Shown: positions 27,095 through 45,979 of the stretch, piece after piece
Layout: each line of letters begins with the position of its first letter
Numbering within the stretch: the first letter of the stretch is position 1
From: a bacterium
GTDB taxonomy: Bacteria; Bacteroidota; Ignavibacteria; Kapaibacteriales; UBA7675
DNA length: 64,000 bases
Assembly: GCA_030430495.1 (NCBI GenBank)
Contig: JAUIKM010000007.1
Location: forward strand, 1 to 64,000
Direction: 5' to 3'
Notes under the pieces: generated by a model
What the model was told of the DNA's origin: nothing
What the model saw: the letters and a program-made list of their open reading frames with translations, nothing else
Databases searched by the model: none
Program-made: the position numbers and the translations under genes

Positions 27095-29518
27095 TCACAA
27101 CTCCACAATCACTCCAATCGTCGGCAGCACCTGGCCGCTGGTGTTCTCGATAAATCGCGGCAGGTAGGCCGCGGCATTGTTCGGATCGACAATCGGCGTG
27201 CCGGCGGCATCGCGCTCAACGTCCAGATAGTCGCGCAGCACCGTCTCAAATGCGTAGGCGTTCTGAATGTCGAGATAGAGGCCCAGACTCCAGGTGTCAA
27301 AAAAGAACTTGCGATCCACCCGGATGTTTAATTGGTGGTAGGCGTCCGTTGTCATGCTGTTGACGCGTGCAAAGTCTTCCAGCCCCGCGCCGCGCGCGTC
27401 CCAGTTCTCGCGTTGTACCGAAGCCGCTACATCAAACGGCGTGTAGGGCGCGCCGCTGTAAAACGTCCAGCGCCCGCCGATCTCCCAGCCGTTGCCGAAA
27501 CTTTTGCCGCCGGTTAAACTGATGATGTGCCGGAAGTCCCAGGACGACGGTTGATATTCGCCGCTTGCGTCCGTGAATTCGCTGCGCATGAAGGTGTAAG
27601 TCAATATGCCGTAAAAGCCGTCGGTGGCGCGCAGTTGTCCCAGGAATTCCAGCCCGAAACTGCGTCCTTCCGAGGTCGGCGTCACCGGCTCGCTGCCGAC
27701 CACGCCGAAGTCGCCGCCCAGATTGGCCAGCGAAACCTGCTGGTCCAGCGCAAAGGGGTAGTTGTTGTACTTCTTGTAAAATCCCTCCAGCGTCAGCGTC
27801 CCGTTGCCGTCAAAAACAGTCTGTTCAACTCCGGCGACCAGATGTGTACTCCTGATCCACGTGATTCCGTTTGTTTTGTTAACAAGAGTGCCTTCTTCGG
27901 AGTCGCGGTAGCCGAGTACCGTGTTGGCCGGAAGTTGATAGTATACGCCCGTGTTGAAGTTGACGCTGAACGACTCGCTGAGAAAATACGCGGCCGAAAA
28001 CCGCGGCGAAAGTTGATCCAGCAGATTTGACGTCTCGTCCGAATAGTCGGCGGCATCGGCGCGCAGTCCGACCGAGAGCAGGAGGCGTTTCTCCAGCAGG
28101 CGCGTCGACGCCTGCGCCGAAAACCCCCAGCGCAGCGTGTTTAACTCGCTGCTGAAGTTCCGCAGCAGCACGCCCTGCTGCGTCGCAAAGCGGTTAAAAG
28201 TCTCGTTTGTGTAAGTGTTCTGATCCAGATTGGCGCTCAGTGTCAGATTGAAATTGTCGAACTGACGGAAGTCCTCCAGCCGCACTTTGTTGTCAATCTC
28301 CCTGGAATTGTAGTCGAGCGTCAGGTTTTGCGGGTCGCTGTCGTCGTTGTTGTTGTACTTGACAAAGTCGTTGTTGAATTCGTTGCGGGAGACGACAAAG
28401 GTGTAAAAACCATCGTCGCGAAAGTGCTGATAATTTGCGCCCAGCGTATAACTCCACTGCGTCTGAACGGGAAGGAAATTCAGCAGGTAGCGTTTTGTTT
28501 CGGTGTCGTTTGCATCGAAGTTCAATTCAAAGTCGTCAACAGCGCCCAGGCCGATGATACTCAGTCTGTTTTTATCGTCAAAATTGTGCGTCAGTTTAAG
28601 TTGAGCGTCGTTGTACGTGGGCAGGAAGGGGAGGCCCACAAGATCGGCGAGAATCTGCAAATAGGAGCGTCGTCCCGAGACGATCACGCTGCTGTTTTCA
28701 CCGAGCGGCCCCTCCAGCGTGAGACCGAGATCGCTGGCGCCGACAACGGCATTGGCCGTATAACGATCCGTGCGGGCCTGTTTTTGCCGGAATTCAAAGA
28801 CGGAGGACAGGGCATTGCCGCGCGAGGCCGGGAAGGCGCCGGCGTAATAATCGACATTGGAAATCACATCGACGTTTAACAATCCGACGGGGCCGCCCGA
28901 ACCGCCCTGCGTTGCAAAATGGTTAATCGTCGGTACTTCAATTCCGTCGAGGAAAAAGCGATTTTCGTTCGGCGCGCCGCCGCGAATAATAATGTCGTTG
29001 CGGAAACTCACTGTTGACGCCGCGCCCGGCAAAGTCTGAATGACGCGCGAAATATCGCGATTTGCGCCGGGGCTGCGTTTGATTTCGGCATTGCCCAGCG
29101 AGCGCAGCGAGAGCGGACTTTCCTCAATTTTGTTGTTAAATCGCGATCCGCCGACCACGACGCCTTCCAGCTCCACGGCTTTGGGCGTCAAAGCTATCTG
29201 AACGACGGCCGGTCGCGAGTTTGTGACTTCCACCTCAAAAATTTTGCGCGATTCATATCCAACCGACGACGCGCTGATGTTGTACAGGCCGGGCTCAAAA
29301 CCGGCCAGTAAAAACGCGCCCTCGCTGTCCGAGATAGTGCCCAGCTGCGTCCCCTCAACCCGAATGGTCGCTCCGATGATCGGATTGTTGTTTAAGGCAT
29401 CGACCACATTCCCGCGGATAACGCCCGTTTGAGCCGAGAGAGCCGCGCTGCTTAAACAAAACATGATTGCCAGTTGACAGAATGTTAATACTGCCTGCGG
29501 AATTGTTGATCTTCTCAT
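27095..29518 (-). CDS. TonB-dependent outer-membrane receptor with carboxypeptidase-regulatory-like N-domain
   Basis: An 807-residue receptor. The start at 29518 gives a good signal peptide (about 1-29, ending SSAALSAQTG). Residues 30-110 form a carboxypeptidase-D-like beta-sandwich (GVIRGNVVDALNNNPIIGAT, LAGFEPGLYNISASSVGYES). A plug domain follows with NRDISRVIQTLPGAAS and NDIIIRGGAPNENRFFLDGI. The remainder is an alternating beta-barrel with many aromatic turns, such as NPNTYTNETF-like loops and WEIGGRWTFYSGAPYTPFD. It ends in hydrophobic residues (IGVIVEL), as expected for barrel insertion. No SusD partner is adjacent, so a siderophore, vitamin or peptide ligand is as likely as a glycan. 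Confidence 0.9.
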   Translation of the reverse strand: MRRSTIPQAVLTFCQLAIMFCLSSAALSAQTGVIRGNVVDALNNNPIIGATIRVEGTQLGTISDSEGAFLLAGFEPGLYNISASSVGYESRKIFEVEVTNSRPAVVQIALTPKAVELEGVVVGGSRFNNKIEESPLSLRSLGNAEIKRSPGANRDISRVIQTLPGAASTVSFRNDIIIRGGAPNENRFFLDGIEVPTINHFATQGGSGGPVGLLNVDVISNVDYYAGAFPASRGNALSSVFEFRQKQARTDRYTANAVVGASDLGLTLEGPLGENSSVIVSGRRSYLQILADLVGLPFLPTYNDAQLKLTHNFDDKNRLSIIGLGAVDDFELNFDANDTETKRYLLNFLPVQTQWSYTLGANYQHFRDDGFYTFVVSRNEFNNDFVKYNNNDDSDPQNLTLDYNSREIDNKVRLEDFRQFDNFNLTLSANLDQNTYTNETFNRFATQQGVLLRNFSSELNTLRWGFSAQASTRLLEKRLLLSVGLRADAADYSDETSNLLDQLSPRFSAAYFLSESFSVNFNTGVYYQLPANTVLGYRDSEEGTLVNKTNGITWIRSTHLVAGVEQTVFDGNGTLTLEGFYKKYNNYPFALDQQVSLANLGGDFGVVGSEPVTPTSEGRSFGLEFLGQLRATDGFYGILTYTFMRSEFTDASGEYQPSSWDFRHIISLTGGKSFGNGWEIGGRWTFYSGAPYTPFDVAASVQRENWDARGAGLEDFARVNSMTTDAYHQLNIRVDRKFFFDTWSLGLYLDIQNAYAFETVLRDYLDVERDAAGTPIVDPNNAAAYLPRFIENTSGQVLPTIGVIVEL

Positions 29519-30172
29519 TTTTAGTCCGTTAAGAATCGCGTCCAGGTTGACCCACAACAGTTGCAACATAACAAATTTCCGCCGCCGCATCGCCGAATGC
29601 AAATCATTCGGCGCCAGCCGCACGTCGCGCGTCATCAAGGGCCGTATCGGCTGCCTGAGCCGCGTGCGGCGAACTGCCCGGCGACGCGGGACGTCCGGCT
29701 CCATGATTCTTTTGCTTGCCTTCGGGTGAATAGTCGGGCGTTCTTGAGAAAGTTCTCTCACGGCAGGCCGCGGATCGCGTCGGGTGAATTCACCGGCCTG
29801 CATATTGAGCTACATCTGTCGGAGTGGGAGTCGGTGCGTCGTTTGCTGCGGCGCTCCGGGGCCGGAGCTTCGGATTCAGGTTGTGTTACCGAGCAGTGGA
29901 CAGGCTCCCCGGCAGGCGTAGTCTGCCGCGCTCAGAGAAGTCGCTTGCAAGACTGTGGCGCAAAAGGCGCGCCGCCTGACGGCGCCGGAGCAAGTCTCCG
30001 AGCCGCGGACCTGTGGGTGGTAGTGAGCGCCGCCGACGCGTTGCGGTGCGAGCTTTTTCGACTGCGAGGTGTGCAGAATGAACCGGTGGGCGGGCGGGTC
30101 TGCCGGAATCGCCAATGCGATCAAAGCTGCATGCTGCCATACAATCGCTCTGAGCCTATGCCAATAAAACAA
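29519..30172. other. Long intergenic region upstream of the TonB-receptor gene
   Basis: About 650 bases between the TonB-receptor start and the terminator of the giant propeller gene. Reading frames here lack coding character, including a 345-codon plus-strand one. The stretch contains the 53-bp dispersed repeat described separately and a small hairpin (TGAGA/TCTCA at about 29743-29760). The promoter of the TonB gene is expected near 29520-29620 on the minus strand; no consensus was recognised. Confidence 0.4.
30036..30088 (+). repeat. 53-bp dispersed repeat, copy A
   Basis: Matches 38548-38600 at 49 of 53 positions in the same orientation. The unit starts ACGCGTTGCGG and ends TGCAGAATGAACCGGTG. 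Both copies lie in non-coding DNA downstream of a minus-strand gene. The sequence has no strong internal symmetry. The flanking sequences of the two copies are unrelated. Confidence 0.7.
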
Positions 30173-30226: not shown

Positions 30227-33200
30227 TCAACGCGCCAATACCAACGGTACTACTCGTTGAATCGTCTCGTTGCCGTCGGCGGCCTGAACTACGATGTAGT
30301 ACATTCCGCTGGTCAACATTCGTCCATTGCCGTCGCTGCCGTTCCACTCAATCCGGTATTCGCCGGCATTGAAGTTGTCGTTCACAAGCTGCGCCACGGC
30401 GCGCCCGTTTACGTCGCGCACTTCCGCCTGCACGAATGCGCTGCGATTCAGTCGGAAATCGATGCGGCTGTCGCCCTGTGTCGGGTTGGGAGCCGCCGTC
30501 AGACTCTCGAACAGGGCGGGACCAGTTGCCCCGGGCATCTCGTCCACGCTGCTGCGGTACGAGGCGCCGCCCAGTTGAACCGTGACGGTCGCCGTTGAAC
30601 TTCCATCCTGTCCGTCGCTGATCGTGTAGCTGAACTCGTCCGTCGAAGATGCCGGAATTTCACTGGGCAGTCCGGCCGTGCCCGGCGGCGTATACTTGAC
30701 TTTTGTGCTGTCGGCATTGAGCGCAGCCTGACCGCTGCCCGGACTGGTGACGCTCGTGATCTTGATCGGATCGCCATCGATTTCCACGTCGTTGTCCAGA
30801 ACACACAGTTCAATGGAATTGTCCACGGGAATCTCGCTCGGCAAAGTTTCGACGCCGGTCATAACATCGTAGCTGTCGTCGCGTGCAATCGGTTTGAGGT
30901 TGCGGTAAAATACCGCCACCGCGTCGTCGCTGGAGCCGGCAACGTAGACGAATTTGCTGTCGCTGCTGACTTCGATGCCTTTGGCGCCGCGCAATCCGTC
31001 GACGCCGTTTTTGCCGTCCTTTTTGCGTTCTTCAAAGTTCAATTCGCCGCTTTCCGGTTTGCGCGAAAAGTGGCCGAGCGCTCTGTCGGACTCACCGGAA
31101 ACGTAGACCTGCAGTCCGTCCGCACCGACGGCCACGTCGGCTGCGCCGTCGAGACCGGCCACGCCTGCGTCGCGATCGCTGTAGTCGTGTACATAGGTGA
31201 GTTTGCCCGTGCTGTCGTCGCGTGCAAACACCGCCACGGCGTCATCGCCATTGCCGGCAACGTAGACATGACGGCCGTCGGCACTGACTTTGACCGCGAC
31301 GGCTTTGCTCAATCCGTTAACGCCGGCTTTGCCATCTTTCTGGCGTTCAACAAATGTCAGTGAGCCGTCGGAATCACTGCGGCTGAAGACCGCCACGGCA
31401 TTGTCGCCGGATCCGGCGGCATAGACGTGTTTGCCGTCGGGGCTGACAGTCACGTCGCAGACGGCGCGCAGGCCGTCAACGCCGCCCGAACCGTCTTTAT
31501 GGCGTTCCAGGAAGACAAACATTCCACCGGCCTGACTCATGACGGCAATGCTGTTTTCGCTCTTGCCGGCTACGTAGATGTTCTTGCCGTCAGGGCTGAG
31601 CGCCACGGCCGAGGCACCTTTGAGACCGTCGAATCCGCCGGAGTTGTCTTTTTCACATTGTATCTGCGACAGGCTGCCGTCCACGTCGTTGCGTTCGAAG
31701 GCGACCAATGAATTGTCGCCATAGCTCGAAGCATACAGGTAGTTGCCGTCGGGTCTGAAGGCCAGGTCGCTGACGTAGCGGATTTTGTTGACGCCGCCAT
31801 GCCCATGGCGATAGCGTTCCACGTATTCCAGTGTTCCATCGGTACTGCTGCGGTTAAACAGGACAATGGAGTGGTCATTGCGTCCCGCGGCGTACAGATG
31901 TTTGCCGTCAGGGCTGATTGCCGTATTGCCGACGTTGTTGAGTCCTCGCACGCCGTTTTTGCGATCCTTTTCGCGTTCGACGAATTGCAGGTTGCCGGGC
32001 AGGCAGGCATTGCCGACGACCATCACAAGGGCACTGGTGGCAACGCAGCCGTTGCTGTCTTCCACCGAGTAGTCAAAGACGTCGAGGCCGTTAAACTCTG
32101 CGTCGGCCGTATACGAGATTTCACCTTCGGAGATTGAAGCGTCGCCGTTGTCGGGCGTTGCCGTTGACTTAATCGAAAGGGTGCTGCCGCTGTCGTTTGC
32201 CAGGACATTGGCATTGGTCGACTCGCCTGAGTTGACTTGTTTAACATCCGGAGCTACAATCAGTGTTTTGGCATCGACATTCAACACGACGGCTGTTGTA
32301 CAACCTGCGCCGAGCGTGCGATTGAGCGTCAGTTTGTCGGCTGCGCCCTGGTTCCACTCGACGACGATTGCGCTGCTGCCCTGTCCGCTCAGAATCGTAC
32401 CGCCGGAGATGGTCCAGTTGTCCGTTTCGCCTGCGGCGGCGGCTGGAAGAGCTGCATACGTCAGCGGTGTGTTGGGACAGCCGCAGGTCGTACCACTGAT
32501 CGACGGCTGCGCACTAAGGGAAAACGTTGTGCTGCCGATGCCGTCCAGATCGAAGAGTTTCATCGTGTACGTGCCGCCCATGTCAGCACTTCCCGCCGGA
32601 ATCTCGGTGGCAAGCATGGTGGCCGTTGAAGAAGAAACGTCCAGGCCGATCGTCGAGTTGTCAGGCAAGGTCAGCGAGGCTTTGGTGACGTCGCCAAGCG
32701 AGAGCCCTGTCAGGTTAAGCGCGAGACTGCCTGTCGTGGAAATCAAACAGTCGGGAGCAGCCGCGTGCACTTCAGGGGGGATACCATTGTTCCAGAGTTC
32801 GAGTTCAGTACTGATTCCGCCGGACAAAACTTCCAGGTCGCCGTCGCCATCCAGATCGCCCAGTGCAATACCCTTGCGACCGGCGTCTGTAGCTCCCATG
32901 GCATAGGAGTCAAAGGTCGCATCGCCGTTGTTCAGGAACACCTGAATGGAAGCGTCTTGCGGGCTGAAAGACTTGTACACGCGCAGCACCAGAACATCCA
33001 GATCGCCGTCGCCGTCGATGTCGCCGACGTCGAGCCCGCGTTGATTGGCCTCGCGCCCGAATGAACTGCTGGCGAATGTGCCGTCGCCGTTGTTTAACCA
33101 CAGGGCGTTGGCCACGTCCGTTCCGCTGTAGCTGTATTGGCCCGAGAGCACGGCGTCCAGATCGCCGTCGCCATCCAGGTCGCCGGTTTTAATACCCCAG

Positions 33201-35740
33201 TAACCGCCGCTTGCAAACGTCGAGGTGGCAAATGTGCCATCGCCGTTGTTTAAGAAGATCTGATTTCCGCGTGAAGTACTATGGTTCGGGCGGATGATGT
33301 CGAGATCACAGTCGCCGTCCAGATCGCCAAGCGCAAACTCAAATCCGCCGGCGCCGGTGCCGATCGTCTCGTTCGTCCAGTCGCCGTTGCCATCGTTCCA
33401 CAATATGGATGTAAATTCGGCGTAACCGTCGTCGCCCGCAACGATATCGAGGTCGCCGTCGCCGTCCATATCGCCCAGTTCGACACCCTTGTCGCCGGAA
33501 AAACTGCTCGTAACCGTCGTCTGACTAAAGGATTGTCCGTCGCCGTCGTTGTAAAACAAGTGAATGTCTGTGTGGCTGTTGTTAACAACAAAATCGAGGT
33601 CGCCGTCGCCGTCCAGGTCTCCGATTGTGAGTCCTTTGGTAGACATCGAACTCGAAAATACTTCCGAAAGTCCTCCGGTTCCGTCGTTGTGCAGAACGGC
33701 CACAAGGCCGTACGAGTCGGTCAGAACCACGTCCAGATCGCCGTCGTTGTCCATGTCGCCAACGCGGATCAGGGTGGGTTTGCGATTGATGCCCGGATCG
33801 AATTTCTCAAATCTGCCGTCGCCGGTTTTGACTTCTGCCAGGAAAGAGTAAACGTTAGACGGGAGCACGTCGCCGCCGAAAGTCGTCGCCCCGGTCACCG
33901 ACACCATGATTTTTTCGCCGGGTTTGAAGTTCGCGGCCGGGTCGATCACTACGCGCGTGTCGTCGGCTTCGAAGCTGATGCTCGCCTTCGTCGTGATGTG
34001 CCCCGTCTGGTCGCCGTACACGATCAGATTGGCGTTGCTCGGGATGGTTGCCGACGTCAGCGTGGACGTGTTCATCGGCTCACCGTAGGTAATCGCAATG
34101 TCGGCGTCACAGGCGGCCGACGGCGTGTTTTTGGCGGGAGAGAACTGCGGGCCACTGCTTCCGTTGAGCCACAGTTCCACGCCGCCCTGGCTGCTCGAGT
34201 AAACCGGGGACACCGCATCGAGATCGCCGTCGCCGTCGAGGTCGCCCAGCGCCACATAGACGTTGTTGTGGTTGTCGCTCTTAAATGTTGAAGTTCCGAA
34301 TGTTCCGTCGCCGTTGTTGATCAGGATTTCATTGTTGGTGGATCCGAAATTGACGATTGTCACATCGAGATCGCCGTCGCCGTCCATATCGCCTAATTGC
34401 AGACCGATGGCATCGTTCGTCGGTGCGGAGCCGTGGCTCGTGAACGTTCCGTTGCCGTCGTTAATCCAGAAGGCGGAACTCACCAGATCGAGGTCGCCGT
34501 CGCCGTCGATATCGCCAAGAGCCAGGCTGCGCGCCGTGGAGCCCGTATAGGTACTGGAAGCAAACCCGAAGCTGCCGTTGTTTAACAGAACCAGGTGATC
34601 TGTACCGCCGTAAGCGTTGAAAATAATGTCGAGGTCGCCGTCGCCGTCAATATCACCGCTCGCAACATCGGAGATCGAAAAACCGCCGTGAATGCCGTAG
34701 CTCGAATCGGTAAATGTCGCGTCGCCGTTGTTGCGGAACAGATGCAGGGAGTTGACATTCAGTCCGGCCACGATGTCGAGGTCGCCGTCTTTATCCATAT
34801 CGCCGATTGCCGCGTGGAAGGCGTTTGTACTGCCGAGCTGCTGCGACGTGAACGTGCCGTCGCCGTTGTTTAACAGAATCGACGGAATGTCGGCACTGTT
34901 GACGGATGGCAGAATGACATCGAGGTCGCCGTCGCCGTCAAGGTCGCCGGTCTCGATATTGGCGCTGCGAATTGCCAGCGACTGCTTCAACGTAAACGAT
35001 CCGCTGCCGTCGTTGAGCAGGGACTCGATTGCAAAGGTGCTGCCGTCGTCGTCCCATTGGTGCAGCACATCTATATCGCCGTCGCCATCAAGGTCGCCGA
35101 CCGCGACGAATGTGGAATACGATGCGGTGCGGATGTAGCCGGCGGGCGCAAATTCACCGCTGCCGCCGTCCACTGCCGCCGTGAAGCTGAAGACCTGCGG
35201 TTTTTCCGGGATATTGCCGTCGTCGTCCAGGATGTTGTCGGTGAGCGTTACCGAGATAACTTCGCCGGGTTTAAAATCGTTGTTCGGATTGAAGGTCACC
35301 GGGCCGGAAACGGTTCCATTGAACATGCCGTCTTCCGAAATCAGGCCGGTCTGCGAGCCGAACACGCGGATATTGGCGCCGGTGGCCGTCGGCACGTCGA
35401 CGCCGTTGCTGAAACTGATGACTACGTTGGCGTCTTTGGCGACGTTGAGCGCATTGGTAGCCGGGCTCAGGTCGGTGAACTTGTAGAAGCTGAAGGCCTG
35501 TGCGTCCGCCTGGCCCAGGAAGGCCGCCGCCATTGCCAGCAAACCGGTTTGTACCGCCGGGCGTTTCAAAGGATTGAGGCGCAGGGCCAGGTGTCTGACG
35601 CGTTTTGTCAGAATGGCAAGACGTCGTCGCACGTCGAGTGCGCCGCCGTCCTGTGTTCGCAGGCGTTTAATCTGGCGCAGCGCCTTGCGATAGCGCCGCA
35701 GCAAATCTCCGGAACGCGATTTTGAACGTTGAGCTTGCAT
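30227..35740 (-). CDS. Giant T9SS-exported protein with two FG-GAP propellers and one lactonase-like propeller
   Basis: An 1837-residue secreted protein. The start at 35740 (MQAQRSKSRSG) was preferred; residues 1-58 are strongly basic and a hydrophobic export segment follows at about 60-82 (ending GQADAQA). Order: bacterial Ig-like domain (about 83-190), seven FG-GAP/VCBS repeats with calcium-type DxDGDGDLD loops (about 205-530), a second Ig-like domain (about 540-650), seven more FG-GAP repeats (about 660-985), sandwich domains, seven YVAG-type lactonase-like repeats with PDGKHVYAAG motifs (about 1245-1620), a cadherin-like domain, and a T9SS type A sorting domain (about 1750-1837, starting APNPTQGDSRIDF). 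A surface or secreted adhesive or binding role is inferred. It follows a TPR-LuxR regulator gene on the same strand. Confidence 0.9.
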   Translation of the reverse strand: MQAQRSKSRSGDLLRRYRKALRQIKRLRTQDGGALDVRRRLAILTKRVRHLALRLNPLKRPAVQTGLLAMAAAFLGQADAQAFSFYKFTDLSPATNALNVAKDANVVISFSNGVDVPTATGANIRVFGSQTGLISEDGMFNGTVSGPVTFNPNNDFKPGEVISVTLTDNILDDDGNIPEKPQVFSFTAAVDGGSGEFAPAGYIRTASYSTFVAVGDLDGDGDIDVLHQWDDDGSTFAIESLLNDGSGSFTLKQSLAIRSANIETGDLDGDGDLDVILPSVNSADIPSILLNNGDGTFTSQQLGSTNAFHAAIGDMDKDGDLDIVAGLNVNSLHLFRNNGDATFTDSSYGIHGGFSISDVASGDIDGDGDLDIIFNAYGGTDHLVLLNNGSFGFASSTYTGSTARSLALGDIDGDGDLDLVSSAFWINDGNGTFTSHGSAPTNDAIGLQLGDMDGDGDLDVTIVNFGSTNNEILINNGDGTFGTSTFKSDNHNNVYVALGDLDGDGDLDAVSPVYSSSQGGVELWLNGSSGPQFSPAKNTPSAACDADIAITYGEPMNTSTLTSATIPSNANLIVYGDQTGHITTKASISFEADDTRVVIDPAANFKPGEKIMVSVTGATTFGGDVLPSNVYSFLAEVKTGDGRFEKFDPGINRKPTLIRVGDMDNDGDLDVVLTDSYGLVAVLHNDGTGGLSEVFSSSMSTKGLTIGDLDGDGDLDFVVNNSHTDIHLFYNDGDGQSFSQTTVTSSFSGDKGVELGDMDGDGDLDIVAGDDGYAEFTSILWNDGNGDWTNETIGTGAGGFEFALGDLDGDCDLDIIRPNHSTSRGNQIFLNNGDGTFATSTFASGGYWGIKTGDLDGDGDLDAVLSGQYSYSGTDVANALWLNNGDGTFASSSFGREANQRGLDVGDIDGDGDLDVLVLRVYKSFSPQDASIQVFLNNGDATFDSYAMGATDAGRKGIALGDLDGDGDLEVLSGGISTELELWNNGIPPEVHAAAPDCLISTTGSLALNLTGLSLGDVTKASLTLPDNSTIGLDVSSSTATMLATEIPAGSADMGGTYTMKLFDLDGIGSTTFSLSAQPSISGTTCGCPNTPLTYAALPAAAAGETDNWTISGGTILSGQGSSAIVVEWNQGAADKLTLNRTLGAGCTTAVVLNVDAKTLIVAPDVKQVNSGESTNANVLANDSGSTLSIKSTATPDNGDASISEGEISYTADAEFNGLDVFDYSVEDSNGCVATSALVMVVGNACLPGNLQFVEREKDRKNGVRGLNNVGNTAISPDGKHLYAAGRNDHSIVLFNRSSTDGTLEYVERYRHGHGGVNKIRYVSDLAFRPDGNYLYASSYGDNSLVAFERNDVDGSLSQIQCEKDNSGGFDGLKGASAVALSPDGKNIYVAGKSENSIAVMSQAGGMFVFLERHKDGSGGVDGLRAVCDVTVSPDGKHVYAAGSGDNAVAVFSRSDSDGSLTFVERQKDGKAGVNGLSKAVAVKVSADGRHVYVAGNGDDAVAVFARDDSTGKLTYVHDYSDRDAGVAGLDGAADVAVGADGLQVYVSGESDRALGHFSRKPESGELNFEERKKDGKNGVDGLRGAKGIEVSSDSKFVYVAGSSDDAVAVFYRNLKPIARDDSYDVMTGVETLPSEIPVDNSIELCVLDNDVEIDGDPIKITSVTSPGSGQAALNADSTKVKYTPPGTAGLPSEIPASSTDEFSYTISDGQDGSSTATVTVQLGGASYRSSVDEMPGATGPALFESLTAAPNPTQGDSRIDFRLNRSAFVQAEVRDVNGRAVAQLVNDNFNAGEYRIEWNGSDGNGRMLTSGMYYIVVQAADGNETIQRVVPLVLAR

Positions 35741-36474
35741 AGTTGATCGAATGGATTGTGTTAAGTGGAACAGGGATGTTGAGTCAGTTAACTGTGCGCG
35801 TGAGTGCGAATCGGGCATGAAAATGCCGGGAGGCGCGTCAACTGCAAACGCGCTTCCTGAAATGACATGTGCGGATGATTAAACAATAAACACCGCCTTG
35901 AACTGGCGGTTTGTTGTCGGCTCAGCTTGTGCATGACTTTGGGAGCAGCCATGCCGAACCATTACCTGATGCACCTCGCTCAGGTACAAAATTCCCCGCC
36001 GGAAGAACAGTTCATCCGGAGCAGGTTCGGCGCTTTGGCCGACTGGTTTGAGCAGCAACAACTACAATTTACAATCAAACTGCGGCGGCATCCCTACTGC
36101 AAACCTACGCAAACAGCGAAAAACTTGACGCCGCCGAATTGCCGCGGACGCGAGTGCAAAGCAGGGGGATTCTCAGTAAGTGCATGCAAATCAATGAGAT
36201 ATGGTCGTGAAAATGCGCTGGTTTTTCTGGGGGACGGCGTCAGTACGTTACGCATTTGCCACGCACGGGGAAGTTTATTCATCTTAAGAATTCTGCAGTC
36301 GAATAATGCGGCTTTGTGCCGCTTGAACTTGCGTGCGAGACTGTACACCATTGGCCGGAAGTTTGTATGCCGACGCACTTGTTCAGGGCTGAACACTCCT
36401 TGACAAACAAAAGAGTCATGGAGCGGTGCGCAGCACAACGCGATCTGGCCATGCAGGCCGTGAAAGTTTAATTT
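35741..36474. other. 734-bp leader between the first regulator and the giant propeller gene
   Basis: It should contain the promoter of the giant protein. It is unusually long for this genome's otherwise tight spacing. Plus- and minus-strand frames of 60-158 codons occur but lack coding character or good start sites. GTTAACTGACTCAAC lies upstream of the gene start on the minus strand. No consensus promoter or terminator was recognised. Confidence 0.4.
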
Positions 36475-38205
36475 TCAGGCAAGTTCGCGCAGGAAAGGCT
36501 GCAGGTCCATTTTGCCGTCGAGGCCGATTTTCTTGCGGATGCGGTAGCGGTGGGATTCAACGCTGCGCTGACTTAAACGCATGATGCGGCAGACGTCTTT
36601 TGAGGGGATCTCGAGTTTCATCAGTGCGCAGATTTTGCGCTCCTGTGAGGAGAGGTCGGGGTGGCGCGACTGCAGGCGTTCCATGAATCCGGGGTGGATG
36701 AGGGAAAATTGTTCCTCAAATTCATTCCACAAATTGTCCTCGTCCAGGTGAATCGATATGTCGCGACAGATGGAGCGCAGGTCGCTGCGAATCTGCGGAC
36801 CGCGGTTGGCCGCGGCTGCTTTCATTGCGTTAGCAGCTTCCTGCAGCAACTCGTTTTTTGTTGAAATCTGGATTGTTTTGGCGACGAGCTGGTTGCGCGT
36901 CTGGTCGCGTTCGCGCTCCATCTGTAGTGATTGCTGCTGTTGCAGGGCGGACTTTGTCATGGCAATTGTTAACTCCCGGCGCGACTGTTCGATTTCAACC
37001 GTGCGCGTAAGGTCGGAGTACATCAACGCAATTTTTTCATCGTTAATTGTTTTAATCAGCGCCGCGTGTTCTTCCAGCAGTTCGAGCGCCGCTTTAAATT
37101 CGCCGGCGGCAGAGCGAATATCTTTCAGTATTTCCAGCGCCTGCGTCTTTTCGCCGTTAAAATGTTGTTCGTCGGCAATTTCCAGGCCGCGTTCGGCGTA
37201 TGCCTGCGCGCCGTCAAGCTCGTTTGCCAAGAGGTCGAGCCGCGCCAGCAGGATGCAGGCTGAGCATTCGTTGCGCAGAAGTTTGACTTTTCTGGTTATC
37301 TCCAGAGCTCTTAATGCATAGCTGCGCGCGCCGCCAAATTCGCCTCGCTCGAACAGCGCCATGGCCCAGACCGCGGCAACACCTTCCTGCTGGATATTGC
37401 TCTGCAGCATGGTCGCGAGACTTTCGGCTTCACGCAGCAGGTCAAACACGCTGTCGTCGACGTTGTTGTTTAACACGTTGGCGCGTGCAATACACAACAG
37501 GGCATTGGCGATATTGATCGGATAGTTGATGCTGCGCGCAATGTTGAGCGAAATGTTAAAATTGCGTATTGCTTCCTCGTAGTTTTCCAGTCCGGCATAG
37601 GCAATGCCCAGGTTGTGATGAATGCTCTCCGTGTTGAGGCCGTGGCCATCTTTGGCGGCGAATTCCAGCGAGCGTTCACATTCGCGAATAGCGCTGAAGT
37701 AACGACTCTGCGAAATATAACCCAGGCTGGAGATAAAACAAACGTGAATCAAGACGCCGTAATTTTCGGCCGCCGTGGCCAGCTCCTCCGTCTGCCTCAG
37801 GAACTGCATGCCCACGGATACCTGCCCGGCGTAAATGTACAGCGTGGCCAGTTCTTTCAGCGTGTACATTAACAGAGTATTGTTGTTTACTTCTTCGGCC
37901 AGTTTTTTGGCGGTGTTTAAGTCGCGGCGTGCTTCATCATTGGCGGCCAGCCGGGTATACGCACTGCCGCGTCGCATAAACAGTTCACCTTGCAGGCTTT
38001 TGTCCTCGACGTTGTTAATCTCGGCCAGGACAAGATCGGACAATTCCAGGAAGTCGCCGGGATTTTGTTCAACAATCAGGCGTCCTTCCCGGCAGAGGTA
38101 TTTCAGGCGCGCCTTAACATCTGACTTGTCGAAAAACTCACTGCGCATTTTAGCGATGTTCAGCTTCGAGCGCTCGACGGCATTGCGGTTTGCGGTAGTT
38201 TCCAT
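36475..38205 (-). CDS. TPR / coiled-coil / LuxR-type HTH transcriptional regulator (module 1)
   Basis: A 576-residue soluble protein with no signal or membrane segment. About residues 55-390 are tetratricopeptide-like helical pairs (for example SIHHNLGIAYAGLENYEEAI). Residues about 400-470 form a charged coiled coil (EIEQSRRELTIAMTKSALQQ and onward). The C-terminus (about 510-576) is a LuxR/GerE-type helix-turn-helix: LSSQERKICALMKLEIPSKD with the recognition-helix segment LSQRSVESHRYRIRKKIGL. It probably senses through the TPR superhelix and binds DNA. It lies upstream of, and in line with, the giant T9SS propeller gene. It is a more distant relative of the two regulators at 39.8 and 44.1 kb. 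Confidence 0.85.
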   Translation of the reverse strand: METTANRNAVERSKLNIAKMRSEFFDKSDVKARLKYLCREGRLIVEQNPGDFLELSDLVLAEINNVEDKSLQGELFMRRGSAYTRLAANDEARRDLNTAKKLAEEVNNNTLLMYTLKELATLYIYAGQVSVGMQFLRQTEELATAAENYGVLIHVCFISSLGYISQSRYFSAIRECERSLEFAAKDGHGLNTESIHHNLGIAYAGLENYEEAIRNFNISLNIARSINYPINIANALLCIARANVLNNNVDDSVFDLLREAESLATMLQSNIQQEGVAAVWAMALFERGEFGGARSYALRALEITRKVKLLRNECSACILLARLDLLANELDGAQAYAERGLEIADEQHFNGEKTQALEILKDIRSAAGEFKAALELLEEHAALIKTINDEKIALMYSDLTRTVEIEQSRRELTIAMTKSALQQQQSLQMERERDQTRNQLVAKTIQISTKNELLQEAANAMKAAAANRGPQIRSDLRSICRDISIHLDEDNLWNEFEEQFSLIHPGFMERLQSRHPDLSSQERKICALMKLEIPSKDVCRIMRLSQRSVESHRYRIRKKIGLDGKMDLQPFLRELA

Positions 38206-39779: not shown

Positions 39780-41507
39780 ATGCAACACAGTCCAATGAAA
39801 CCACACGACTTAACAAAAATCTCTCCTGCATCAGTTCTCGAAATGACCGCAGAGGAACTTCACAGGATCACGCTGATCGGCTTGAGCGCATATCAGGATG
39901 ATCCCGAGAAACTGTTGGGCCTGGCGCATGCGTTTAAGCAACGGTCCTTTGCCCTGGGATTGAAACGGCTGCAATTGTACGGCCTGAGTTTTTGCGCCCG
40001 GCTATATGAAGGGATGAACAGACATGAGGAATGCTCGGCGGAAATACAGCAGATGCGGGAAGTGGGCCGGCAGCTCACACTCCCGAGTGAACTCTGCTAT
40101 TTCCATAGTCAGATTGGAACGCTAGAAGCAAATCGCGGCGATTTTGCCGTTGCCATGAAACACTTGTTGTCCGCTGTTGAATTGTACACGGAAGACAGCG
40201 GCGAGGGCGTTGCCTACGCTCAGGCATGCCACGGAATCACCTTTACCTACAATGAAACAGGTCTGTATCAGGAGTCTATTCGCTGGGCTTTGCGTTTGCT
40301 CGACTTTCTCGATCGCGGCGGCGCTCGCTCAGATACAGGCACCCTTCACTGTCTTGTTGCCGATGCGTACAAAATGTCCGGCGACAATACCACCGCGCGC
40401 CGTTATCTCGAAAAGGCGCGAAGCATTTTTCGCAGCACAGGGCTGAAACTGGGGGAGGCCGATGTGTGCCTTCTCGATGCGCAGTTGTATGTGGCGGACG
40501 GCAACTACGCGGCGGCGCTGCAAGCCGCCGAGCATGCCCACGAGCTCTTTGGGGAAGTGAAATCTGTACTGCAGGAGTACAAATCCCGCCTTTTGCGCGC
40601 TCAAATTCTTCGCATGTCGCAGCGAGAACGCGAGGCGCTGGACCTGCTTGAAAACTGGAGACCGGATCAGGGAGCGGAGCGGACACCGAGATATGAAACG
40701 CAGCGCCTGCACGAAATGGGCCGGATACTGCGGCAGATGGGGCGTCCCCAGGAGGCGCTTGAATATTTTCTGCGTGTGGAGGCGGTATTCAAGTCCGGCG
40801 ATCGCAAAGCAGACTTTCTGGATCTGTACGACGATCTGGCCGAAGTGTACGCCGAGCTGGGAGACATCCGGGCAACCCGAGAATACAGCCGCAAGTTTCG
40901 CGATATGCGGGAAGAAATGTACTCTCTCGAACGCCTGCGTGCGGTAGCACGCGTGGAAATGCAACGCAAGATCCGTAAAGCGGAGCACGACGCCCGCAAT
41001 TTGAAAGCCGAACTGCAAACAACACGCGAAAATCTGCAGTCGCACAAAGCCAAGCTGGGAGAGCTGACCATTCGACTGGACCGCAATCAGGCCGAGTTTG
41101 AAGTTGTGAGACAGCACATCCGCAAGATTGCAGCGACCAGCGTCGGCCGGCGACGTCACTTCGCCGAAAATCTGTTGAATCTGATCGAAAGTTCACACGA
41201 CCAACGCAATGAAGTCGACATCGCCGAAGTTTTTGACGAGGTCGTTGCCGACCTTGCAAACGCATATCCCGCTCTGACGACCACCGAGTTAAAGATATGT
41301 GTCTTTTTGCGCATGGCGCTGAGCACCAAAGAAATTGCGGATTTGACGTATAAGTCGGTGGCGACTATCAAGACACACCGGCGCAACATTCGCAAGAAAC
41401 TCAACCCCGGTCGACAGAGCCTCAGCGCGTATCTGATGCAATTTGGCAAGCCGGATCCCGCGGCCGATAAACAACAGGAATCCCGGTGGGCCATACCCAG
41501 CCCCTGA
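39780..41507 (+). CDS. TPR / coiled-coil / LuxR-type HTH transcriptional regulator (module 2)
   Basis: A 575-residue soluble protein. After an N-terminal segment (MTAEELHRITLIGLSAYQDD) come TPR-like helical repeats to about residue 370 (HLLSAVELYTEDSGEGVAYA, MGRPQEALEYFLRV). A long coiled coil follows (about 375-450), then LTIRLDRN and SVGRRRHFAENLLNLIE, and a C-terminal HTH: LTTTELKICVFLRMALSTKE with recognition segment SVATIKTHRRNIRKKLNP. These last three blocks are nearly the same in the 44.1-kb regulator, so the two are paralogues. GGGGG lies 13 bases before the ATG; a downstream ATG at 39795 is possible. A propeller-type T9SS protein gene follows 310 bases later. Confidence 0.87.
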   Translation: MQHSPMKPHDLTKISPASVLEMTAEELHRITLIGLSAYQDDPEKLLGLAHAFKQRSFALGLKRLQLYGLSFCARLYEGMNRHEECSAEIQQMREVGRQLTLPSELCYFHSQIGTLEANRGDFAVAMKHLLSAVELYTEDSGEGVAYAQACHGITFTYNETGLYQESIRWALRLLDFLDRGGARSDTGTLHCLVADAYKMSGDNTTARRYLEKARSIFRSTGLKLGEADVCLLDAQLYVADGNYAAALQAAEHAHELFGEVKSVLQEYKSRLLRAQILRMSQREREALDLLENWRPDQGAERTPRYETQRLHEMGRILRQMGRPQEALEYFLRVEAVFKSGDRKADFLDLYDDLAEVYAELGDIRATREYSRKFRDMREEMYSLERLRAVARVEMQRKIRKAEHDARNLKAELQTTRENLQSHKAKLGELTIRLDRNQAEFEVVRQHIRKIAATSVGRRRHFAENLLNLIESSHDQRNEVDIAEVFDEVVADLANAYPALTTTELKICVFLRMALSTKEIADLTYKSVATIKTHRRNIRKKLNPGRQSLSAYLMQFGKPDPAADKQQESRWAIPSP

Positions 41508-41817
41508 GCGTTGCCGGTGCAACGTGTTGAGCCATTCAATGGCGGGAAGGCAGGCCTTTCACCCCTGGCGCCTTCCGTGTAAGTTCCTTAAAATCAACAA
41601 GTTGTGCGCCTCGTACCTACTTTATACCTTCCTGCAACGCTGGCGTTCGTCCATCCGCCGGTATATATTGGATCAGATCGCGGCGCCTACGATCACTGTA
41701 CCCCTCTCTCAGTTCACTAGTATCGGTCCCGGTGGATACGATGTTGCCAATGTTCAGCCGGGCGGCTGAGATTGCCGTATCCCCTCGACCAAATCACAAT
41801 TTAACGGATGGATTATC
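41508..41817. other. Leader region between the module 2 regulator and its secreted protein
   Basis: No full gene. One plus-strand frame ends with an oddly protein-like tail (VPLSQFTSIGPGGYDVANVQ, stop at 41767-41769), which may be chance or a fossil. GGATGGA just before the ATG at 41818 can act as ribosome-binding site. No clear promoter or terminator was recognised, and the sequence is not similar to the corresponding leader of module 3. Confidence 0.4.
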
Positions 41818-43551
41818 ATGCAAACAAATGTTGTAACGACTCGCTTGTTTAAGGCAGGCATCATACTCTGTGCCTTGATGATAACAACTCAGGTGTTTGC
41901 CCAGCCAAGCCTCACATTGGAACGCGAATTTGGTTCCAACGAAATGTGCGGCGGCTCGACGCAAAAATATGTTGAATACGCCAATTCACTTGCAACGACT
42001 GCGGATGCCGGCGCGGTCATGTTCGGCCCGATGTATCAGACCTGTGGTCTGTACAATTCCACACCGACAGCCGTAAAGGTAAATCGCTTCGGCAATATGC
42101 AGTGGAATCGCACTTACCAGATTGAGTCTCCCGGTCTTGGTTTTGAGATTGTTGACTGCGTCAACGGCGAAATGGCCTGGACCTGCACGGGTGTTGACGG
42201 AGTGTCCGGCATTCAGGGCGCGCTCGTGGTGCGTACGACAGGCGGCGGCGTACCGGTCTGGTCCACCATCGTCTATTGCGACATCGAAATGGTGCACCAG
42301 TATCATCCCGAGAGCATCATCGAAGCTTCCAACGGGGATATCGTAATCTGCGGTTACGTCGAGCATATGGACTCGCAGACGGATCGCCGCGATGTGTTCA
42401 TGGCTCGCCTGGATGCGGGCGGTGTGCTGCTGTGGTCGCACTACTACAGATGGACTCCCGGAATTGAGGAAGCCGCGCGTTTTCTGGCTGAAGACTCGGC
42501 CGGCGATCTGATCGTGGCCGGACATGCGATTGACCGGAACACCATCGATACGGATGCCCTGCTCATGAAAACCCATGCGAATGGTATCGTGATCTGGGCG
42601 CATCACTACGGTTCGTCGAACATCAGTCAGGAATTCGAGTCGCTGGAGATCGACTTTCAGGACAACATCTATGCCGCCGGTTTCTGGGATCGCGGAAATG
42701 GCGGCGCCGACGCATATGTCGTCAAAGCCGCCGGCCTCAACGGCAATCTGATCGGTGCGGCTCACATGTACGACGTTGCGCCCAATTCGCTCGACGGCGC
42801 CTACAGCATCAACCCCGCTCTGAACGGAACCAGTTTCGTCGTTGCCGGGGAAGCCGTCATCGCACCGGGCGCACTGAATCAGTACGGTTCGTTTGCCATG
42901 GAGATTCCGGCAGCGCTTGGTGCGCCGACCTGGATTCACCGTTATGGCTTTACCAATACGCGCGATCAGTTCCGCAGTGTGGAGTCGACGCCCGGACTCG
43001 GTGTTAATCCCGCGCCCGGTTACTGGATGGCAGGCGGCAAAGATCCGTCCGGCCTCGGCAGTGGGGACCTCGACTTTTATCTGGTTCGCACGAACCAGAT
43101 TGGCGAGGACCTCTGCACAACCAACACTCTGCCCGTGTTTTCTCTGAACTACGATGACGAGGAAGTCAAATACACACACGTAACCTGCGCAACGAGCACG
43201 TCGATTACGTTGTCGTACAAGTCAATCATGGTTCAGAACAACATCTGTATTGACATTGTCATGAAGGGCTCGACCCAGAACGACAATGCGCCGATTAACG
43301 GCCAGATGCCTCTGCTTGCACCCAACCCTGTCGTGGCAGGTGAATCGATTGCATTGGAGCCGGGCGTGGAAGCGATCAGCCGCGTAGAAGTGCGCGATAT
43401 CCTGGGACGTGAGGTGTTCCGCTATGACCTTGCCAATCCGGGAGAAATCGTTCAGGTGGAAACACAGGGATGGAGCGCCGGCGCCTACGTCGTGACATTT
43501 GTGCAGCCCGACGGAACAACATTCAGCGCCTCGCTGCAGGTTGTTAAGTAA
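41818..43551 (+). CDS. T9SS-exported beta-propeller-like protein (module 2)
   Basis: A 577-residue secreted protein. Signal peptide 1-29 (LCALMITTQVFAQ, then PSLTLEREFG). The body has about seven repeats of the pattern hydrophobic strand, glycine turn, W, aromatic-Tyr: VKVNRFGNMQWNRTY, VVRTTGGGVPVWSTI, MARLDAGGVLLWSHYY, LMKTHANGIVIWAHHYG, VVKAAGLNGNLIGAAH, MEIPAALGAPTWIHRYG, LVRTNQIGEDLC. This is like SBBP-type propellers. Nine or so cysteines are shared with the paralogue at 46.1 kb. The C-terminus (about 500-577) is a T9SS sorting domain: LAPNPVVAGE, VEVRDILGREVF, GWSAGAYVVTFVQPDG. Exported by T9SS to the surface or medium; ligand unknown. Followed by a terminator. Confidence 0.88.
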   Translation: MQTNVVTTRLFKAGIILCALMITTQVFAQPSLTLEREFGSNEMCGGSTQKYVEYANSLATTADAGAVMFGPMYQTCGLYNSTPTAVKVNRFGNMQWNRTYQIESPGLGFEIVDCVNGEMAWTCTGVDGVSGIQGALVVRTTGGGVPVWSTIVYCDIEMVHQYHPESIIEASNGDIVICGYVEHMDSQTDRRDVFMARLDAGGVLLWSHYYRWTPGIEEAARFLAEDSAGDLIVAGHAIDRNTIDTDALLMKTHANGIVIWAHHYGSSNISQEFESLEIDFQDNIYAAGFWDRGNGGADAYVVKAAGLNGNLIGAAHMYDVAPNSLDGAYSINPALNGTSFVVAGEAVIAPGALNQYGSFAMEIPAALGAPTWIHRYGFTNTRDQFRSVESTPGLGVNPAPGYWMAGGKDPSGLGSGDLDFYLVRTNQIGEDLCTTNTLPVFSLNYDDEEVKYTHVTCATSTSITLSYKSIMVQNNICIDIVMKGSTQNDNAPINGQMPLLAPNPVVAGESIALEPGVEAISRVEVRDILGREVFRYDLANPGEIVQVETQGWSAGAYVVTFVQPDGTTFSASLQVVK

Positions 43552-43624
43552 ACATGGTGGTAGTTAACATCTCGTCATTTGGAACAGGACGGTAAAACGT
43601 CTTCCAAATGACGAATGTACGGAG

Positions 43625-43660
43625 CATGCCCGGGCGGAGTAATCCTCTCGGGCATGTTAA
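43625..43660 (+). terminator. Probable terminator after the module 2 secreted protein
   Basis: CATGCCCG (43625-43632) and CGGGCATG (43649-43656) pair perfectly over 8 bp around a 16-nt loop and are followed by TTAATTTCTT. It lies about 75 bases after the stop codon. Confidence 0.6.
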
Positions 43661-44072
43661 TTTCTTGCTGAAACGATGGAAGTGTTAAGCCAGATGAGGT
43701 CAATGCCGCAGTGCCCGAAATCAATTTCTTCACCATTGCTTCAACGGGGTTTCCAGTCGAAGGTAGCGCACTTTGCGACTTTTTACCGCCTTTTTCCTCT
43801 TTGTTTGATTGCATTGCAGGCAAGGTTAAGCCTGTTTCAGGCGATACCCGTCAGAGTCGAGCGCACTGCACATGCTGCTGCAAAAACAATGCAAAAAAGA
43901 ATGACCAGTGAGATCATTGGCCGAATCTTATGTTGGCCGGCTGCACGGAGTTGATGTTAATGCAGCGTCCATCGCCCGGGACGCAACTGCGGGGAACAAA
44001 ATGTTTGAGAGACCTACGGCCGGATTCGCGTGCGGTGTGATTCAAGTACCAAAAATGAACAGGAGAATTCAC
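43661..44072. other. ~410-bp region upstream of the module 3 regulator
   Basis: The regulator frame is open from 43908, but the part before 44073 is not similar to the paralogue and has no ribosome-binding site, so I treat it as untranslated. CAGGC/GCCTG (around 43819-43836) forms a small hairpin. No convincing promoter was recognised. Confidence 0.35.
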
Positions 44073-45788
44073 ATGAGCGGGACATACCAAAACAATACAC
44101 TTCTGATTTACCCGGACCGGACCAGCGTGATGACTATGAGTTCGGATGAACTGTGGAGCCTGCACAAAAGCGGAATCAGAAAACACGGAGATCCGACCAG
44201 GCTGATTGAGTTTGCGCGAGCCTATGAGAAGCGTTCTCACAGTCTGGGCATTCTGTTTCTCGAAATGGAAGCTCTCGCGCTGCAGATGGTCAGTTTAACG
44301 TTCCAGACAAAAAACGAAGAAGCTACAACAGTGCGCAAGCGATTTGTCAACCTGCGGAATCGACTGCAGTCCCGCCGTGAATATCTCTTCTACTATTGTT
44401 GTCTCGGCACGCTTGCGGAAGCTATGGATCAGCAGGCCAAAGCTGTCTCGTTTTTGTTAAAGGCAGTCGAGTATTACGACCAAAGTCATGCAGATGCAAC
44501 ATTTTATGCACAGGTCTGCCACGGACTGACAAACGCCTACTTCAAATCCGGTCTGTATCCGGAGGCGCTGCACTGGACGCTGATCGTTCTGGACCTGCAG
44601 GAATCGGGTGCGGTCTCGTCCTCGCCGCATTCTTATTATCTGGCCGCGCTGATATACCAGCAGGCCGGCGACAAAACGCGCGCCGCCGAATTTGTCGATT
44701 TCATGCGGCGCAAGTGCGGGGAGCTGAACGACGATCTCTTTGAAGCCCGAATCCTGCTGCTCGACGCAAGTGAACTCCTCAACTGCGCGGATGATGACAC
44801 GGCAAAAATCGCGGCCGGACTGGATATCGCGCGGCAGGCCGTCCGCAAGCTGGAGCGACAGCACCACTTTTCCACCGTCTGTGAAGCGCTGTTGATTCAG
44901 GTGTCCGCGCTGAGGCGTTTGCGGCGTTTCGACGACACGCGTGCGATACTCGAAGGCCCTGCACTGAATTCAGCGTCGACTCCCTGGATTGTAGCCGCGC
45001 GAATGAAGGAATACGGCCAGCTGCTGCTGGAAAACGGAGAGCCGGCTGCGGCAGTCGAAAAATTGCTGCCGCTTGAGGCGGAGTGGATGCATGGACTGGA
45101 CGGCGAAGACAAGTGTGAGGTAATGGAAGTTCTTTCCAAAGCGTTTTTGCAATTGGACCAGTTGGAACGCGCCCGCGCATACACGCAGAAATACCACGAA
45201 ACCATGCTGCAATTGCATTCAATAGAGTTTCAGCGTCGTATTGCGCAGGCAGAGATACAGAAGGAAATTCGCCGCGCCGAGAGGGAAGTGCAGAACCTGC
45301 GCTCAGAACTGCAAAATGCGAATGATCATATCAGAGACAGCGATGCCCGCCTGACCGAGCTGACGATTCGGCTCGATCGCAATCGCGAACAACTCACAAC
45401 CATCAAACAACAGATTTACGACATTGCCGCCAAAAGTGTCGGTCGCCGTCGTTATTTTGCCGAAAACCTTATTAACATGATCGATGCTTCTATCGATGAT
45501 CTGGATGAGTCCGGCAGGGAACTCGATATTAGCGGTGCATTTGTGGACATATTAACAAACCTGTCCACTCACTGCCCTGAGTTGACAGCCACTGAATTAA
45601 AAGTCTGTGTATATTTGCGTATGGCGCTCAGTTCCAAGGAGATTGCCTCAATCCTGTGTAAATCACACGAGACAATTCGCTCTCACAGACGCAATATCAG
45701 ACGCAAGTTAAAACCCGGCAAACGCAACCTGGCGGCCTTCCTGATGGAGCTGGGCAACAAAGAGGTCAACAACGGCGCACCAAGGTGA
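44073..45788 (+). CDS. TPR / coiled-coil / LuxR-type HTH transcriptional regulator (module 3)
   Basis: A 571-residue soluble regulator. The ATG at 44073 was chosen for its AGGAGA ribosome-binding site seven bases upstream. Layout equals the module 2 regulator: N-terminal MSSDELWSLHKSGIRKHGDP, TPR-like repeats (for example HGLTNAYFKSGLYPEALHWT), coiled coil (about 380-450), LTELTIRLDRN, SVGRRRYFAENLINMIDASI, then HTH LTATELKVCVYLRMALSSKE with SHETIRSHRRNIRRKLKP. The shared blocks show the two arose by duplication, but the TPR parts have diverged strongly, as expected if they sense different cues. The paired secreted protein gene begins 265 bases downstream. Confidence 0.87.
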   Translation: MSGTYQNNTLLIYPDRTSVMTMSSDELWSLHKSGIRKHGDPTRLIEFARAYEKRSHSLGILFLEMEALALQMVSLTFQTKNEEATTVRKRFVNLRNRLQSRREYLFYYCCLGTLAEAMDQQAKAVSFLLKAVEYYDQSHADATFYAQVCHGLTNAYFKSGLYPEALHWTLIVLDLQESGAVSSSPHSYYLAALIYQQAGDKTRAAEFVDFMRRKCGELNDDLFEARILLLDASELLNCADDDTAKIAAGLDIARQAVRKLERQHHFSTVCEALLIQVSALRRLRRFDDTRAILEGPALNSASTPWIVAARMKEYGQLLLENGEPAAAVEKLLPLEAEWMHGLDGEDKCEVMEVLSKAFLQLDQLERARAYTQKYHETMLQLHSIEFQRRIAQAEIQKEIRRAEREVQNLRSELQNANDHIRDSDARLTELTIRLDRNREQLTTIKQQIYDIAAKSVGRRRYFAENLINMIDASIDDLDESGRELDISGAFVDILTNLSTHCPELTATELKVCVYLRMALSSKEIASILCKSHETIRSHRRNIRRKLKPGKRNLAAFLMELGNKEVNNGAPR

Positions 45789-45934
45789 GGGTGAAGCGTA
45801 AGGTGTTGATTCTTAACGGCTTAGATGCTAGCTGCCCCTTTTTTACCGCAACGTAAGCCTTTACATGGCGCTTCCGCTTTTGTATGTTTAAGCGAATCCC
45901 GGCCGAGATTTGTTTCCTGACAAACCACCGAGAC

Positions 45935-45963
45935 TTGACAAGGAGCGGCTTAACTCTTGTAGA
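45935..45963 (+). promoter_or_regulatory. Candidate sigma70-type promoter of the module 3 secreted protein
   Basis: A perfect TTGACA (45935-45940), a 17-base spacer and TGTAGA (45958-45963) form a -35/-10 pair. Transcription would start around 45970, at the C9 tract, about 85 bases before the ATG at 46054. Confidence 0.45.
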
Positions 45964-45970
45964 TTGCCAT

Positions 45971-45979
45971 CCCCCCCCC
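45971..45979 (+). repeat. C9 homopolymer at the predicted transcription start
   Basis: Nine consecutive C residues, the longest homopolymer I noticed in the window. It begins 8 bases after the -10 candidate and lies in the 5' leader of a surface-protein gene. Tracts like this can vary in length by slipped-strand replication and alter initiation or promoter strength. Confidence 0.6.

Follow-up and report, generated by a model that had tools for sequence, protein, structure and literature searches.

Motif counts in a long gene of a Kapaibacteriales bacterium had suggested that a single protein might fold into three seven-bladed β-propellers (referred to here as the sequence-only reading), raising the question of whether these rings close, what they are for, and how their blade number is kept. 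The window analyzed here is the whole 64,000-nucleotide stretch of contig JAUIKM010000007.1 (assembly GCA_030430495.1, positions 1 to 64,000 of the forward strand). It contains a minus-strand ORF at 30227-35818 that encodes 1863 aa. Since the other family proteins begin, in alignment, at Met27, position 35740 is the better start, and we place the giant propeller protein gene at 30227-35740 (minus strand), in agreement with the 1837-aa length read previously. Residue positions below follow the 1863-aa numbering, and all features of the protein lie on the minus strand.

Domain order and predicted folds

A Pfam scan of the whole protein returned two Big_5 domains, FG-GAP repeats, a Lactonase domain, two Big_9 domains, and a C-terminal FlgD-like Ig domain. 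At the N-terminus, a conserved leader with a basic part and a hydrophobic segment (residues 27-108; 35495-35740) is followed by an Ig-like Big_5 domain (best stretch of Pfam PF13205, residues 114-213; 35180-35479), FG-GAP propeller 1 (residues 219-548; 34175-35164), a second Big_5 domain (approximate limits, residues ~559-660; 33839-34144), and FG-GAP propeller 2 (residues 666-1012; 32783-33823). The second Big_5 domain is the other PF13205 stretch, was aligned with the first, and precedes block 2 in that alignment, in line with the earlier proposal of an Ig-like domain ahead of each FG-GAP block. A linker (residues 1013-1185; 32264-32782), with a weak PKD-like match at residues 1105-1181 (18.8 bits, under the Pfam cutoff of 25), leads to an Ig-like domain of the Big_9 or tandem-95 type recognized by Pfam and NCBIfam (approximate limits, residues ~1193-1270; 32009-32242). 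The lactonase/YVTN-type propeller 3 (residues 1275-1640; 30899-31996), an Ig-like Big_9 domain (best stretch of Pfam PF17963, residues 1642-1747; 30578-30895), and a type IX secretion system (T9SS) type A sorting domain (NCBIfam TIGR04183, residues 1776-1857; 30248-30493) complete the protein.

Seven FG-GAP repeats had been counted in each of two blocks, and we recovered seven DxDxDG-type motifs, i.e., seven blades, in both. DxDxDxDxD-type motifs were located at residues 242, 292, 340, 389, 436, 477, and 526 in block 1 and at residues 688, 734, 783, 832, 880, 933, and 988 in block 2; one FG-GAP motif has Glu as its last residue. All 14 FG-GAP blades of the window have a calcium-type loop, one of them with Cys for Gly (DGDCD), and may bind calcium. 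The motifs, Pfam (FG-GAP_3, 266.7 bits, cutoff 26.9; FG-GAP, 54.9 bits, cutoff 22.1), and blade HMMs define both propellers, with a structural model in addition for propeller 1. Considering that blade HMMs match shuffled family proteins only ~0.002-0.005 times per 400 aa, these repeats are not chance. Propeller 2 is 39% identical to propeller 1, and sequence profiles returned CRTAC1, integrin alpha-V and alpha-4, and Tc-toxin B subunits as FG-GAP relatives of known structure. The third block is covered by a Pfam Lactonase match (130.8 bits, cutoff 21.7; 8.7e-38), and its sequence-profile relatives are 6-phosphogluconolactonase-like proteins and the surface-layer protein 1l0q. The seven YVAG repeats claimed for this block stand if the motif is relaxed: seven Y[VA][AS][GS] sites are present, at residues 1309, 1362, 1415, 1466, 1519, 1572, and 1625 (in order YAAG, YASS, YVAG, YAAG, YVAG, YVSG, and YVAG), but exact YVAG occurs in just three of the seven.

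Ring closure was judged from structure comparisons of AlphaFold2 models for two blocks, residues 107-556 and 1262-1645. Both gave closed, seven-bladed matches, and neither was an open solenoid or an unclosed ring. The first model used 17 sequences, with 15 hand-picked rows from 13 of 38 related loci and with the viral-contig rows L081 and L088 in its alignment, and reached a pTM of 0.76, with a pLDDT of mostly 85-95 in the propeller part and ~25-65 in the poorly modelled first Big_5 domain. Its top Foldseek match was CRTAC1 (TM 0.59 over the entire query), and VIA-align matched propeller 1 to AUDH 4a7y (Z 30.9, 332 residues, rmsd 3.1), integrin alphaIIb 9e8a (Z 29.8, 314 residues, rmsd 2.7), and CRTAC1 (Z 29.1). 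The propellers of AUDH and integrin alpha are 7-bladed according to the available text of PMC8023676. Since a trial alignment with lactonase-type viral-contig rows was poor, propeller 3 was folded from its single sequence (pTM 0.81, pLDDT 77.5). The model resembled 7big, a designed propeller with seven blades (Z 37.5, rmsd 1.7 Å), and 6-phosphogluconolactonase 6nau (Z 35.4); by Foldseek, the best matches were 6nau and the related E. coli protein 1ri6 (TM ~0.70 over the query), and the fold matches include surface-layer protein 1l0q. Its secondary structure consists of six four-stranded units and a last unit of three strands. Thus, of the three closed, seven-bladed propellers originally proposed, propellers 1 and 3 are backed by AlphaFold2 models, but propeller 2 only through its identity to propeller 1. 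Because AlphaFold versions gave conflicting blade numbers in one case described in the accessible part of PMC9218822, models alone are no proof of a blade count.

The piece ahead of the first lactonase-type repeat, LQFVEREKDRKNGVRGL, had been thought to resemble a repeat end, and an HMM of the window repeats (51 positions) indeed matched residues 1275-1290 with its positions 35-50 (13.4 bits). This proposed velcro strand of blade 7 (31949-31996) would complete a split seventh repeat, the same window-only HMM finding six full repeats in propeller 3 and a seventh that covers profile positions 1-31 alone. Across the third blocks of 17 proteins, the last repeat stops at profile position 29-32 in 16 and is below threshold in L048. 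A leading end-piece scored >2 bits in 10 of the 17, and in a 17-row alignment every row has a similar leading piece with an invariant Gly-Leu. The first 30 residues of the propeller 3 model, which include the proposed strand, had a pLDDT <50, and the strand was not placed. For the FG-GAP blocks, a strand profile was made from the stretches before motifs 2-7, with the protein under test excluded. Stretches before motif 1 lay above the random 95th percentile in 41 of 50 blocks, and trailing stretches in 7 of 50. Mean scores were 0.4 for leading, 20.5 for internal, and -28.1 for random stretches, i.e., the leading stretches are weaker than true blade ends. They fit the leading strand that the available text of PMC3192720 describes for integrin-type propellers. 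As far as sequence can indicate it, velcro-type closure is visible for both propeller types, FG-GAP and lactonase-type.

Family, blade counts, and probable copying unit

The C-terminal cassette of the protein (lactonase-type propeller, Ig domain, and T9SS type A tail) was found at least 17 times in its own genome, where 150 of 292 first-look candidates were scored; the genus-level search covered this one genome. In the sister-genus genome G002, scoring of 150 out of 512 candidates gave at least 29 near full-length copies and at least two limited to the propeller part, and G001 gave partial matches only. Among 294 genomes sampled from the class, the cassette was detected in the own genome alone, which is not proof of absence since scoring took four candidates per genome and the sample contained no sister genus. 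Twelve of the own-genome cassette proteins bear FG-GAP propellers, from one to five each, and L043 and L054_6557 have beta-helix-type matches in their place (Pfam was run on five of the other family ORFs). The window protein's best match in G002, L090, is 48% identical to it; truncated by the contig at its N-terminus, L090 still retains the lactonase-type wheel behind two of FG-GAP type. L054_2 was assigned to the L046 cassette, and thereby counted among the twelve, because two contig ends share a peptide. The ends of contigs C30 and C61, where L054:2-5653 and L046:5023-8340 lie, read the same short peptide, and a single three-propeller gene is probably split between them.

An HMM retrained on the family counted seven blades in all 30 FG-GAP blocks of the 12 own-genome cassette proteins. 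The count did not change when the cut-off was set to 0, 2, or 5 bits or when the block gap was varied between 60 and 90 residues; stricter cut-offs of 8 and 12 bits left seven in 29 and 28 of the 30 blocks. With an HMM built from the window blades alone and a cut-off of 3 bits, 27 blocks had seven and three had six. A strict Ca-loop pattern occurs 201 times in these 12 proteins, which have 210 blades. The 30 blocks do not include the own-genome FG-GAP ORFs that have no cassette, L055 (blocks of 1, 4, and 7) and L050_7208 (blocks of 1, 5, and 1), or L056, L057, and L058, each with few scattered FG-GAP motifs. In seven FG-GAP proteins of G002, chosen as best matches to the window protein, 20 of 21 blocks have seven blades, the other (four) being cut by a contig end. 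Five genomes from another family of the order, likewise chosen by match, yielded seven in 26 of 31 blocks, one exception lying at a contig end, and G001 yielded seven in 3 of 8, again with one exception at a contig end. At 23 loci from named genomes, FG-GAP blocks ranged from 1 to 21 blades.

If wheels descend as wholes from a common wheel, blade k of one should resemble blade k of the other. By chance alone, a best circular shift of zero is expected for one pair in seven. The best shift was zero for 32 of 49 close module pairs, for 45 of 111 and 64 of 284 in the two middle classes, and for 163 of 781 distant pairs. By this sequence comparison, whole-wheel descent is clear for recent pairs, and for distant pairs it is not proven. 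Six pairs of modules within the same protein reach 82-92% identity. When the nearest relative of each blade was sought (n = 350), it lay in the blade's own module 5 times, in another module at the same position 189 times, and in another module at another position 156 times. Given such pairs and only 5 of 350 nearest blades within the own module, the unit of recent copying is most likely the whole wheel, the older modules being left undecided; homogenization inside a wheel is possible. Modules 3 and 4 are 92% alike in L040 and 83% alike in L095, and 79-80% alike across the two genera, a pattern that hints at homogenization between wheels or at independent duplication. Varying blade number and internal blade amplification are reported for highly repetitive VCBS propellers in PMC9218822, although most wheels of the present family are less repetitive than those, so that the two sets are not directly comparable.

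Leader, sorting domain, and neighbouring genes

The C-terminal tail of the window protein scored 30.7 bits against NCBIfam TIGR04183 (cutoff 23) and 20.7 bits against Pfam Por_Secre_tail PF18962 (under the cutoff of 27), and therefore passes the NCBIfam cutoff only. SprA is encoded in the genome (TIGR04189, 934.6 bits together with a neighbour, cutoff 200). At the N-terminus, the window leader has 18 K/R and 3 D/E when its last 24 residues are excluded, and by eye its long basic part is followed by a hydrophobic segment with an AQ-type end. Eleven own-genome proteins have this conserved leader, 77-89 residues long; ahead of its mostly hydrophobic final 24 residues, it has 14-20 K/R and 1-6 D/E. 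Each of the 11 is an FG-GAP protein, and the passenger behind the leader starts with a Big_5-FG-GAP module. In L045, where the FG-GAP wheel does not come first, the leader is ordinary and short. A profile trained on these 11 leaders and on five from G002 necessarily finds them, and the weight of the search rests on its other outcomes: up to E = 0.01 it matched nothing beyond the 11 in the own genome; it matched 20 places in G002 and 2 in G001; and up to E = 1e-4 it matched none of the other 116 genomes in an order sample of 119. Among the genomes sampled, the leader is confined to three genomes of one family.

Directly upstream of the propeller gene is a gene for a regulator with TPR and a LuxR-type HTH (36475-38205, minus strand), possibly part of the system. 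A TPR-LuxR gene lies directly upstream and on the same strand in 8 of 17 cassettes (the window, L039, L042, L043, L045, L047, L049, and L052), the 17 including L050, whose start is cut by a contig end, and L054_6557, which has a short flank before it; in L053, such a gene lies downstream. A profile of the nine genes matched 47 stretches in the genome, the nine ranking first in a list made with a profile trained on them. In G002, TPR-LuxR genes precede three of nine cassette ORFs examined. This adjacency is suggestive of a regulatory role. A row of four plus-strand genes of 575-626 aa was also noted in the window (39780-47793). The gene at 39780-41507 has TPR matches and that at 43908-45788 a LuxR-type HTH, both being weak matches to the regulator profile, and the other two gave no Pfam match at 1e-5. 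Downstream of the propeller gene, 27095-29803 encodes a TonB-dependent receptor (plug domain, carboxypeptidase-like N-domain). It was considered as a member of the system and left out because the fetched flanks of the other loci hold no relative.

Proposed role of the propellers and comparison with known systems

We consider it likely that the protein is a surface-anchored giant secreted by the type IX route, built from Ig-like spacers and three closed, seven-bladed propellers, the third of which belongs to the shared cassette. After export across the inner membrane, it would pass through the T9SS and be held by its C-terminal domain at the cell surface, where it is probably displayed. The lactonase-type wheel would then lie near the cell and the integrin-like FG-GAP wheels at the free end, as calcium-stiffened heads most likely directed at glycans or other surfaces. 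Of this picture, the domain order, blade counts, two of the folds, the family with its recent duplications, the leader, the regulator adjacency, and the presence of SprA were obtained by computation, and anchoring, the binding of calcium and ligands, and regulation are inferred. The "stalk" of the sequence-only reading would correspond to the Ig-like domains and the T9SS tail, the sequence features that suggest it. The family appears to have grown by copying of whole propeller modules and by setting other display parts, beta-helices among them, on the same cassette. Since about half of the copies lie behind a TPR-LuxR gene, separately controlled display is suggested. More tentatively, the loci may constitute a modular display system: one T9SS cassette that carries a variable number of whole, seven-bladed calcium wheels or beta-helices, a new class of basic leader of ~80 residues dedicated to passengers that begin with Big_5-FG-GAP, and dedicated TPR-LuxR regulators. 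Under this tentative reading, seven would be held because duplication and homogenization act on whole wheels and not on single blades.

Other roles can be envisaged for the same wheels. Propeller 3 could be a working lactonase that the FG-GAP wheels merely present at the surface, as its Pfam Lactonase match (8.7e-38) and best Foldseek matches, 6nau and 1ri6 (TM ~0.70), might indicate. His and Glu are the kind of residue found at lactonase-type active sites. No invariant column of propeller 3 in the 17-row alignment of cassette copies is His or Glu, making an enzyme role less likely, and the surface-layer protein 1l0q is also both a sequence relative and a fold match; we regard a lactonase as quite unlikely. 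The profile and fold match to that archaeal protein points in turn to a family that is mainly structural, i.e., an S-layer-like or matrix coat of calcium-stabilized wheels that have no specific ligands. Nearly all blades have calcium-type loops, and at least 17 and at least 29 copies in two genomes would suit such a coat. However, varied display parts on one cassette (one to five propellers, or beta-helix) and regulators beside 8 of 17 cassettes fit a repertoire better, and we give the coat a minor though real share of the probability.

It could also be argued that the sevens are a counting artefact and that the FG-GAP blocks are in fact open solenoids, or rings with a different number of blades. 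Blade number varies in the repetitive VCBS propellers covered by the available part of PMC9218822, external relatives have other counts, and the stricter HMM gives six in 3 of 30 own-genome blocks. Against this, the family HMM returns seven in 30 of 30 own-genome and 20 of 21 G002 blocks, robustly to cut-offs, the models match closed, seven-bladed folds, and leading strand pieces are present, so that we hold an artefact to be very improbable. The surface-displayed protein with three closed wheels, which we prefer, can be compared with several known systems.

Bacterial integrin-type FG-GAP propellers with seven repeats, a Ca2+ motif in each, some tandem sets of seven, and a leading strand for blade 7 were already described by Chouhan et al. 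(2011), as far as the available text of PMC3192720 extends, and the present FG-GAP propellers share all of these traits. Relative to that text, the present proteins differ in having their 1-5 FG-GAP propellers followed by a propeller of lactonase type and a T9SS tail, and in forming a large paralogous family. The VCBS supercluster (aldos-2-ulose dehydratase, integrin alpha), in the text available from PMC8023676, and CRTAC1 have the same fold, DxDxDG loop, and PF13517, whereas in the Pfam scan the window protein has no enzyme or integrin partner domain, and its family keeps a steady seven; with the integrin alpha subunit, we claim the propeller fold alone as shared. 6-Phosphogluconolactonase and YVTN propellers (1ri6, 6nau, 3fgb, 6igb, and 1l0q) have the same PF10282, described as 7-bladed, and the same fold. 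Here, in contrast, such a propeller is the third of a T9SS cassette protein, with repeats of ~53 residues, and neither His nor Glu is invariant across its 17 copies. The C-terminal TIGR04183 domain and a genomic SprA are as in T9SS type A cargo, from which the leader of ~80 residues with its long basic part and the multi-propeller passenger set the protein apart. A literature search found no paper uniting FG-GAP, type IX secretion, and β-propeller. To what was known, the present case adds three wheels of mixed type in one protein with a T9SS cassette, a blade number that stays at seven in 50 wheels from two genera, the recent whole-wheel copies, the leader, and the regulator link.

The family brings integrin-like wheels into what may be a bacterial surface repertoire, together with a conserved, long basic leader. 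Its 50 related wheels in two genera, all seven-bladed and with whole wheels as recent duplicates, also form a natural series with which the question of what fixes blade number becomes testable. Long runs of blades were also seen elsewhere. An order relative (L100:2-14971) has an open frame of 4990 aa with eight FG-GAP blocks of seven, and an Omnitrophota ORF (L038:7587-14339) has 21 FG-GAP blade matches in a single unbroken run, i.e., three times seven.
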